Of a stretch of 64,000 bases of DNA, positions 14,771-18,739 are shown piece by piece (positions within the stretch are counted from its first letter, which is position 1; every line of letters begins with the position of its first letter). The DNA is taken from contig JAHBWY010000002.1 in assembly GCA_019636735.1 (NCBI GenBank), positions 372,001-436,000 of the forward strand, written 5' to 3'. The translations under genes and the position numbers were made by a program. Source of the DNA: Phycisphaeraceae bacterium (GTDB lineage: Bacteria; Planctomycetota; Phycisphaerae; Phycisphaerales; SM1A02). The notes under the pieces are model-generated. The model saw nothing but the letters and a program-made list of their open reading frames with translations. It made no database searches and was not told the origin of the DNA.

Positions 14771-16885
14771 TCAGGTCTTCGCGAGCACCTCGTCCTTGAG
14801 GCGATCGGGCATGATGCGATAGGTGTGCGGCTCCATGCTGGAGCTTGCACGGCCCTGCGTCATGGACCTGAGCGTGGTGGTGTAGCCGAAGAGCTCCGCA
14901 AGCGGAACCTCGGCATGAATGATGCGGGAAACGCCGCGCATCTCACTGTCCACGATGTGACCTCGTCGCGAGGCGAGATCGCCTGAGACGCTGCCGAAGA
15001 ACTCATCGGGCGTGGTCACGACGACCTTCATGATGGGCTCAAGCAGGGCGAGGCCAGCCTGCGTGCACGCCTCGCGGAAGGCGAGGGCACCCGCCTGCTC
15101 GAACGCGATCTGGCTCGAGTCGACATCGTGGTAGCTGCCGAAGACGAGCTGCACCCGGACATTGATGACCGGGTACCCGCCGAGGATGCCGCTTGCGGCC
15201 GCCTGGCGCGCGCCGTACTCGACGCTCGGGATGTACTCGCGCGGGATGACGCCGCCGGTGATCTTGTCCTGGAAGACCACACCATCCTTGAGCTCCAGCT
15301 CCTCGGCCTCGGCCTGTTCCGGGGTGATCGGCTCCACGGTGACATAGGCGTCGCCGAACTGGCCGCGACCACCGGTCTGCTTCTTGAAGAGACCACGCAC
15401 GCGCTCGGCACGGCCGACGATCGTCTCGCGATAGGCGACGCGCGGCTTGCCGACATTGACGCCGATCTTCATGTCGCGCGTCAGCTTGTTCTTGATGATC
15501 TCCAAGTGAAGCTCGCCCATGCCCGAGATGATCGTCTCGCCCGTCTCATCGTTGTAGTTGGAGCGGAAGGAGGGATCTTCGCGGCGGATGGTCGTGAGGG
15601 CTTCGCCGAGCTTCTTCTTGTCGTCGGCGGTGATGGGCTCGATGGACATCGAGATCACCGGCTCCGGGAAGACCATGCGCTCGAGGATGATCGGATGATC
15701 CGGGTCGCAGAGGGTGTCGCCGGTGAAGCTGTCCTTGAGGCCGACCACGGCCACGATCTGGCCGGCGCCCGTTTCATCGAGCGCTTCGCGGTCGAGGGCG
15801 TGCATCTCGTAGAGACGGCTGATGTTCTCCTTGCGGCCGTTGCCGGGGTTGAGCACGCGGCTGCCCTTGGTCAGCTTGCCGGAGTAGATGCGCAGGTAGG
15901 TGAGGGTGCCCGCGACATCGGCCACCACCTTGAAGACCAGCGCCGAGAAGGGCGCGTCCTCCGTGTGGGGCCGAGTGAGCTTGGTGGAAGGCTCCTTGGG
16001 ATCGACGCCTTCGACATCCTCGCGCTCGGTGGGGTTCGGCAGGTACTCGATCGCCGAGTCGAGCACCTTCTGGATGCCGACATACTTGAGCGCCGAGCCG
16101 CAGAGGACGGGGAACGCGCGGCGATCGATGGTCGCCTTCCGAAGCGCCGCCTTCATTTCGGGAACCGTGATCGAGTCGTGATCGTGGATGTACTTCTCGG
16201 TGAGCTGCTCATCGAGCTCGGCGATGCGCTCGACCATCTGGGCGCGCCAGATGGTGGCGGCATCCTTCCAGTCATCGGGAATCTCAGTCTCGGTGATGGT
16301 GGTGCCGTCATCCTCGGCCTTCCAGAAGAGCGCCTTCATGGTCATCAGGTCGATGATGCCCTTGAAGTCCGGACCGTTTCCGATGGGAAGCTGAATGGCA
16401 ATGGCGTTCGCACCGAGGCGCTCGCGAATCGAGTTGAAGCTGAACTCGAAGTCGCCGCCCATCTTGTCCATCTTGTTGATGAGGCAGAGGCGCGGCACGC
16501 CGTAGCGCTCCGCCTGTCGCCACACCGTTTCCGACTGGGCTTCGACACCTTCCTTGCCGTCAAAGACCGCCACCGCGCCGTCGAGGACGCGCAGTGAACG
16601 CTCCACCTCGATGGTGAAGTCGACATGGCCCGGGGTATCGATCAGGTTGACCTTGTAGTCGACCCCCTGGAAAGTCCATGGGCAGCTCGTCGCCGCGGAT
16701 TGAATGGTGATGCCGCGCTCCTGCTCTTCCTGGAGGCTGTCCATCGTGGCGGTGCCTTCGTGCACTTCGCCCATGCGGTGGATCTTGCCGGTGTAGAAGA
16801 GGATGCGTTCGGTCACGGTCGTCTTGCCCGCGTCGATGTGGGCGCAGATGCCGATGTTGCGAACCTTGCTGAGATCGGTGACCAT
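14771..16885 (-). CDS. fusA: translation elongation factor G
   Basis: GTPase that moves tRNAs and mRNA through the ribosome after peptide transfer, and with RRF recycles ribosomes. 704 residues, full length. G1 AHIDAGKTT, switch [11 protein letters not shown]3 DTPGHVDF and G4 NKMDKMGGD are all intact, followed by the domain II to V blocks ([51 protein letters not shown]). It is outside the usual rpsL-rpsG-fusA-tuf string. A good promoter lies 118 bases upstream and the mRNA leader is about 110 bases long. Many genomes of this group have more than one EF-G; which paralogue this is I cannot tell. Confidence 0.97.
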
Positions 16886-17093: not shown

Positions 17094-18134
17094 TCACGCC
17101 ATTCTCACGAGCCGCCTTCGATCGAGGCCAAGACGGGCCAGGTGAGGCTCCACTTCAGCCAGCCAGCGGCGGCCATCTTCCACATAGCCGGCCGTGGGTT
17201 TCAGTTCCGGCATGATCTTCGAGAAGGAGGTGTTCAGGCGACGCATCCAAAGCTCGCGAACCAGCTTGGCGCCCATGCTCGCCAGCGCCACGGTGAGATG
17301 CTTCGACTCCGCTTCCGATTGCCACGAGACGGTGATTCGGCGATGTCGGCAGTCGAGTTCGTAGCGGCTGCCCGCATCGGACTCTTCGAGCACCCTCAAT
17401 GACGCTTCGGGAAAGGTGTAGGCGAGTTCCTCGCGGTAGTGCACGCGGCCGCCGTGGCGATCGAAGGCGACGATGAGATCGTCGTTGGAGTGCTGCTGCG
17501 AGACGGCATGCACCACCTCAAGGCCCATCGCCGTGTTCACCGACGCCTTGCTGCGCGTGCGCTCGAACGCCGCATTGAACGCGGGGACATCAAGAGCGTT
17601 GACGCGCAGCGCGCGCAGCGCGACGCCGGAGTCGGCGAGCGCTCGCTGAAGGCGCTTCGCGGCGATGCCGAGGAGCGCGCGATCGTTGGCAAGCGGGAGT
17701 GGTGTCGGCGCAGTCGACCACGGCGCTGCGTCGGGCGGCGCGGCGCCCAACAGCGACAGGAGCGCACCGTCATCGACGGGAAAGGCGGCGGGTGCGTCGA
17801 GTGCGCAGCGGCCATCGAGACAGGCGAGCCAGCCGAGCACGCCCCGCTCCAAGTGCTCGAGAGGGTGACCCGCGGCATCATTGGGGCGCTTCAACCGCTT
17901 GCTGTCGTCGACAGCGATGCGGCCACGCGGATCGCGCGGTCGTCGGCAGATGGCGCTGCCGAGGGTGGTCCAGAGATCGCCCGAGGTGGCGGGGGTCGAG
18001 GCACCGCCAGTTTCGGAGTTCGTGCCAGATGGCGCAAAGTCTGCCGAAGGGACCTCAGCGAGCACCCAGCCCACGCACAGGGGGCCAAGCAGCGGGCCAT
18101 AGCCCGCTTCGTCGATGCCCAGAAGCAGCGGCAT
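17094..18134 (-). CDS. RNase HII-like protein with altered active-site motifs
   Basis: 346 residues with clear RNase HII layout: N-terminal GIDEAGYGPLLGPLCVG (Asp8, Glu9), VDDSKRL (about 76-81), a third acidic residue at Asp225 (VAFDRHGGR), and a C-terminal ASMGAKLVRELWM where the last carboxylate is Glu294 instead of Asp, then KPTAGYVEDGRRW. RNase HII cuts RNA in RNA-DNA hybrids and at single ribonucleotides. The usual GRG motif after DEA reads GYG, so the arginine that helps recognise the RNA-DNA junction is missing. The protein is also about 140 residues longer than normal, with the extra part between residues 85 and 210. Either a specialised branch or a protein that has lost nuclease activity. 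It is convergent with nothing and divergent from the RRM gene. Confidence 0.75.
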   Translation of the reverse strand: MPLLLGIDEAGYGPLLGPLCVGWVLAEVPSADFAPSGTNSETGGASTPATSGDLWTTLGSAICRRPRDPRGRIAVDDSKRLKRPNDAAGHPLEHLERGVLGWLACLDGRCALDAPAAFPVDDGALLSLLGAAPPDAAPWSTAPTPLPLANDRALLGIAAKRLQRALADSGVALRALRVNALDVPAFNAAFERTRSKASVNTAMGLEVVHAVSQQHSNDDLIVAFDRHGGRVHYREELAYTFPEASLRVLEESDAGSRYELDCRHRRITVSWQSEAESKHLTVALASMGAKLVRELWMRRLNTSFSKIMPELKPTAGYVEDGRRWLAEVEPHLARLGLDRRRLVRMA

Positions 18135-18307: not shown

Positions 18308-18355
18308 CCGAGATCGTCGCCGGTTGCATCAGAGTTCGGGCAAGGATTGATTGTG

Positions 18356-18739
18356 ATGAAACTGTATGTCGGCAACCTGTCGTTCAAGACGACCAATGAG
18401 AGTCTGCGCGAGCTGTTCGAGCAGCATGGCTCCGTGCGCAGCGCGGAGGTGGTGACGGATCGCATGACCGGTCGTTCGCGTGGCTTCGGCTTCGTCGAGA
18501 TGGACGATTCCGGCCAGGCTCAGGCGGCCATCCAGGCCCTGAATGGGAAGAACATCGAGGGTCGTGACCTGACGGTCAACGAGGCTCGTCCGCGCGAGGA
18601 GCGGAGCTTCGGTGGTGGTGGCGGCGGCGGCGGTGGCCGCGGTGGCTACGGCGGTGGCGGTGGTGGTCGCGGCGGTTACGGTGGCGGCGGCGGTGGCCGC
18701 GGCGGCCGTGGCGGCGGCGGCGACCGCGGCGGCTGGTGA
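18356..18739 (+). CDS. glycine-rich RNA-binding protein (RRM domain)
   Basis: A 127-residue protein with one RNA recognition motif: RNP2 KLYVGNLSF (residues 2-10) and RNP1 RGFGFVEM (42-49) with the aromatic residues that stack on RNA bases. Residues 84-127 are a tail of glycine with interspersed RGG and YGG units. Such single-RRM Gly-rich proteins, found in cyanobacteria, planctomycetes and others, act as RNA chaperones, often induced by cold. The ATG at 18356 is chosen for AAGGA at 18342-18346 and because it places the RRM at the very start; a GTG three bases earlier is possible. It stands alone with its own promoter candidate and terminator. Confidence 0.95.
   Translation: MKLYVGNLSFKTTNESLRELFEQHGSVRSAEVVTDRMTGRSRGFGFVEMDDSGQAQAAIQALNGKNIEGRDLTVNEARPREERSFGGGGGGGGGRGGYGGGGGGRGGYGGGGGGRGGRGGGGDRGGW

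Follow-up and report, generated by a model that had tools for sequence, protein, structure and literature searches.

RNase HII is the enzyme that excises stray RNA letters from DNA, and its relative RNase HIII carries an N-terminal domain that is TATA-binding-like. In the Thermotoga RNase H2 complex, the 2'-OH is read by the backbone amides of G21, R22 and G23 together with Y163, and the side chain of R22 follows the minor groove and stabilises E19 (PMC3025331). According to that paper, an R22A substitution left activity on most substrates unaffected, lowering it at one DNA-RNA junction hybrid and, slightly, on a single-ribonucleotide substrate; a Y163F substitution seriously reduced activity, and RNase H3 enzymes are described as being without the junction tyrosine (PMC3025331). 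Excerpts of a comparison of bacterial genomes give HI plus HII or HII plus HIII as the common pairs, with no genome holding HI and HIII only and none lacking all three; the single planctomycete in that comparison belongs to its Group E, which by the definition of its other groups has RNase HI only (Kochiwa 2007, PMC1950709). According to part of a genome survey from 2025, rnhB is largely missing in Planctomycetota (PMC11929135).

We analysed a stretch of 64,000 nucleotides (the window) from a Phycisphaerales genome of the Planctomycetota (3.43 Mb, 97.3% complete). An ORF of 346 amino acids on the minus strand, with its ATG at 18134, encodes a divergent relative of these enzymes, and the features of the locus are as follows.

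17094..18134, minus strand: divergent type-2 RNase H (RNase HII-like), 346 aa (ORF; PF01351 36.7 bits; AlphaFold2; VIA)
18096..18113, minus strand: D8-E9-A10-G11-Y12-G13, putative first two catalytic carboxylates and GxG loop, here GYG (conservation, 88 members)
17898..17906, minus strand: D77-S78-K79, DSK motif (88/88)
17490..17852, minus strand: extra helical region, residues ~95-215, between DSK and the third carboxylate (spacing, secondary structure, conservation)
17457..17462, minus strand: D225-R226, putative third catalytic carboxylate within a DRxGGR motif (D225 in 87/88)
17307..17309, minus strand: Glu276, putative fourth catalytic carboxylate at the KAD/KGD position (HMMER alignment, spacing, 88 members)
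17253..17255, minus strand: Glu294, acid of the R-D/E pair and not the fourth ligand (HMMER alignment, spacing)
17184..17186, minus strand: Tyr317 in TAGYxxD, candidate RNA-DNA junction-sensing tyrosine (88/88; HMMER alignment)
14771..16885, minus strand: EF-G (fusA), downstream on the same strand (Pfam)

The DEAG (residues 8-11), DDSK (76-79) and KLVRE (290-294) blocks, as well as GYG (G11-Y12-G13) in the place of GRG, had been pointed out in an initial annotation and are all present in the translated ORF. Its assignment of the protein as an RNase HII relative agrees both with PF01351 (RNase_HII; 36.7 bits against a cut-off of 25.8, E 5e-9, with matches confined to short stretches) and with the predicted fold. 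An AlphaFold2 model built with a 30-member alignment (pLDDT 90.3, pTM 0.90) was compared with known structures by running VIA-align on Foldseek candidates. The top match of this predicted model was RNase HII 1eke_A (Z 17.6, rmsd 2.6 over 202 residues), followed by human and mouse RNase H2A, archaeal RNase HII and RNase H3 at Z ~15 to 17, with the bacterial RNases HII of E. coli, Thermotoga and Staphylococcus lower at Z 10 to 13, and sequence profiles gave a near-identical ranking of relatives. The model therefore predicts the type-2 RNase H fold of RNase HII.

Conservation was assessed in an alignment of 88 family members, comprising 30 from the order and 58 from the better-scoring matches in the phylum, with the weakest family members left out. 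Asp8, Glu9, Gly11 and the DSK motif are found in 88/88, Gly13 and Asp225 in 87/88, and Tyr317, Lys196 and Arg293 each in 88/88, while position 276 is acidic throughout (68 Glu, 20 Asp). D8, E9, D225 and E276 would thus make up the four active-site carboxylates, DED(D/E), of RNase HII. Glu294 had been proposed as the fourth of these; the HMMER alignment places it instead at Glu276, which pairs with the aspartate of the KAD motif in Archaeoglobus RNase HII, an enzyme that also has Glu at the Glu294 position, and the 18 residues from the fourth acid to the R-D/E pair (276 to 294) are the same in the Thermococcus and E. coli RNases HII. Likewise, what had been described as a single insertion of 120 residues resolves into ~36, 83 and 21 extra residues at three places relative to Thermococcus RNase HII, ~140 in all, the interval from DSK to the third carboxylate being ~83 residues longer; N187 and K196 are invariant within the extra helical region (residues ~95-215). 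These ~140 residues could alter substrate choice. All catalytic residues are kept in the 21 alignment members whose genomes also carry RNase HIII, and selection on the family is purifying (NG86 dN 0.26 to 0.49 and dS 1.1 to 2.0, the latter close to saturation, with dN/dS well below 1 in 4/4 pairs).

Position 12 is occupied by Tyr in 66 of the 88 members, Leu in 20, Phe in 1, Val in 1 and Arg in none, and Tyr12 is no peculiarity of the window gene. Judged from the alignment, the 2'-OH-sensing GRG motif is represented by its two glycines, with Tyr as the middle residue. The initial annotation had the GRG arginine contact the 2'-OH, which is wrong as stated, since that contact comes from a tyrosine and from main-chain amides in the GRG loop (PMC3025331). 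The mild effect of R22A in Thermotoga, together with the finding that Archaeoglobus RNase HII carries GKG and not GRG (HMMER alignment), makes loss of the arginine compatible with activity. The tAGYvqD sequence of the window protein aligns with GSGYPND of human RNase H2A (HMMER), a position that makes Tyr317 the candidate counterpart of the junction-sensing tyrosine, and its retention argues for junction recognition. Leu12 was more frequent in members whose genomes have RNase HIII (17/21) than in those without (3/67), an association that we rejected as evidence of co-adaptation because it reflects mainly one clade and 2 to 3 independent pairs, none of them in the same direction.

In order to place the family among known RNases H, a tree of 48 rows was built (23 GYG, 13 HIII, 8 bacterial HII, 2 archaeal and 2 planctomycete GRG sequences). 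The GYG family stands alone on one side of a branch with support 100/100 and a long stem (2.16), and a split with 97/87 support, from a bootstrap that had not fully settled, separates the HII rows from those of GYG and HIII. In the best tree the GYG family is a clade of its own, outside the HII clade. By profile ranks and Z-scores it would lie closest to archaeal and eukaryotic H2, a placement that AU tests do not settle, as they reject a union neither with archaeal-type HII (p 0.39) nor with bacterial HII (p 0.086). Compared with RNase HII and RNase H2 (rnhB, RNASEH2A), of which the archaeal and eukaryotic enzymes are nearest by fold, the window protein appears to share the type-2 fold, DED(D/E), DSK, the GxG glycines and the GYxxD tyrosine, but has GYG and not GRG (or the GKG of Archaeoglobus), a fourth acid that is usually Glu in the family, the additional residues and, in the best tree, a separate clade. 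With RNase HIII (rnhC) it has the type-2 fold in common (4py5, Z 16.3), and Glu at the fourth acid is also seen in the planctomycete HIII sequences read. In contrast to RNase HIII, the long N-terminal domain is missing from the window protein, which has only 7 residues N-terminal of Asp8, whereas in the HIII ORFs listed the motif is preceded by a long stretch (one contig-end ORF excepted), and where the window protein has the junction tyrosine the planctomycete HIII has a KGAG-like sequence. The hallmarks of RNase HIII, an N-terminal domain and the lack of a junction tyrosine, thus seem to be absent.

The family is nearly universal among the sampled genomes of the phylum. A homologue was found in 61/61 relatives, one copy in each (as two adjacent pieces in one genome), and PF01351 matches over cut-off in the same relatives fell only on these loci; among 294 genomes of Planctomycetota, sampled at at least 90% completeness, 287 carry the family. 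A search of the window genome returned no PF01351 match at E <= 0.001 and no standard RNase HII; at a loose threshold the top two matches were the window gene itself and the other two scored 11.9 and 11.6 bits. By this search the window gene has no RNase HII beside it in the genome, which is one of two circumstances that the initial annotation had named as together weighing against its suggestion of altered or lost function. RNase HI is present (145 bits).

At E <= 1e-10, PF01351 matched in 71/294 genomes of the phylum, and one locus was read in 70 of these 71, leaving out G302 and a second match in G213. The 70 loci comprised 66 of the GKG RNase HIII type, 2 GTG variants (G092, G108) and 2 GRG RNases HII (G063, G085). 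The latter two are true RNases HII, with GRG and GSGYPSD, and both belong to the 7 genomes without the GYG family; the chance of both GRG genomes (2/294) falling among the 7 is 21/43071, or ~5 in 10,000, if relatedness is ignored. The other five family-less genomes (G073, G160, G249, G323, G326) have neither the GYG family nor a GRG RNase HII, and their assemblies may be incomplete. Both GRG enzymes (L069 in G085, L070 in G063) have an archaeal-style GSGYPSD, and the best solved relatives of L070 are archaeal enzymes; a horizontal replacement is possible in these genomes. The GTG variants (L204 in G092, L202 in G108) are RNase HIII-like proteins from one planctomycete family in which GTG replaces GKG and the C terminus carries a long extension, and G132, of the same family, has a second PF01351 match of 38 bits at another locus. 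A short divergent HIII-like gene with GKGEREGLL was also seen in a genome of the window's own taxonomic family (L203 in G199, 1-2001), and a partial match of similar kind occurs in G302, which belongs to the same genus as G199.

We then considered the complement of RNases H in each genome. PF00075 (RNase HI) was present in 228/294 genomes; of the 67 with strong PF01351 matches (65 HIII), 48 were without PF00075 and 19 with it, and PF00075 was found in 209 of the remaining 227, so that genomes of the phylum mostly have either RNase HIII or RNase HI but not both. The GYG family and HIII occur together in 65 genomes. If the GYG family is counted as HII, the phylum fits the known HI plus HII and HII plus HIII pairings. 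Fifteen genomes have the GYG family and neither PF00075 nor a strong PF01351 match; among them, PF13456 is over cut-off in G139, G247 and G298 and below it in G006, and G132 has the 38-bit match noted above. In ~10 genomes, then, these searches found no further RNase H family; G251 (99%, 2 contigs) and G292 (99%, 6% contamination) are the most complete of them, and assembly gaps or unusual RNases HI could account for some. In five genomes of one family (f39: G146, G264, G289, G293, G312), the RNase HI gene converges with that of the GYG family from the opposite strand, at a distance of at most ~450 bases.

The EF-G neighbour cluster is found downstream on the same strand in 67/81 loci, some of which are partial. 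On the other side, the gene adjoins a divergently oriented one (18347-18739, plus strand), whose product is an RNA-binding protein that is rich in glycine and has a single RRM (PF00076). Searches for a mobile-element origin gave no plasmid match, no viral relative and nothing significant in PHROGs. The best 80 of 528 relatives in a contig search were nearly all planctomycete or without a name, and the nearest named ones, among the matches listed, were Phycisphaerae and Phycisphaerales bins. Two records titled Vicinamibacteraceae and Limnohabitans (L264, L281) carry the gene at 42-43% identity to the window and are probably mislabelled or contaminated bins.

Since no other RNase HII was found in its genome and the only GRG RNases HII read lie in genomes without the family, the protein appears to fill the RNase HII slot that had been recorded as empty. 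We consider it probable, at roughly 75%, that the window protein is catalytically active and, as a type-2 RNase H, performs the RNase HII function in Planctomycetota. We infer that it would bind metal and nick duplex DNA at RNA-DNA junctions, on the 5' side of the ribonucleotide, serving in the cell in ribonucleotide excision repair and primer removal; the backbone of the GYG loop would still read the 2'-OH, and an aromatic (or Leu) side chain would take the place of Arg in the minor groove. Counting against an RNase HII role are the NCBIfam RNase HII equivalog score of 30.2 bits against a cut-off of 123.3, the separate clade and the consistent lack of Arg in GxG. The same lack of Arg at position 12 in 88 rows, the clade and the extra residues would also suit an active type-2 RNase H whose preference has changed, through GYG and the helical region, for example mainly towards R-loops or RNA/DNA hybrids, leaving cleavage at single ribonucleotides weak or absent, and in the ~10 genomes where no other RNase H was found hybrid cleavage might fall to the GYG enzyme. 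We regard such a shift as unlikely, because the junction tyrosine missing in RNase H3 enzymes is invariant here, R22A changes little in Thermotoga (PMC3025331), and in most genomes RNase HI or HIII is present for hybrids anyway. A catalytically dead or regulatory relative retained for nucleic-acid binding, in line with the loss of activity first suggested, has only low similarity and the altered motif in its favour and is very improbable given the near-invariant catalytic residues (Asp8, Glu9 and DSK in 88/88, Asp225 in 87/88, an acid at 276 in 88/88), purifying selection, a single copy per genome, and its standing as the one RNase HII relative found in the order and the sole candidate for the role in most of the phylum.

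In the open-access literature searched on planctomycete or divergent RNase HII we found no description of the GYG family: nothing on the question appears in the portion of PMC2837039 considered or, by term search, in PMC12283558, and the main text of a Planctopirus limnophila transposon paper, as far as covered, names no RNase H (PMC10632474). Databases may label some members RNase HII, with Pfam already reaching them weakly. It is tempting to speculate, at somewhat less than even odds, that the family forms an additional, deeply separated lineage of type-2 RNases H next to HII and HIII. Such a lineage would have assumed the HII role early in planctomycete history and would sense the RNA-DNA junction through its aromatic GYG loop and conserved tyrosine, and in some species it may be the only RNase H. 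The supposed loss of rnhB in Planctomycetota would be corrected by a candidate replacement, and a candidate present across the phylum makes planctomycete ribonucleotide excision repair testable. The family is, in addition, a natural experiment on whether the arginine of GRG matters.
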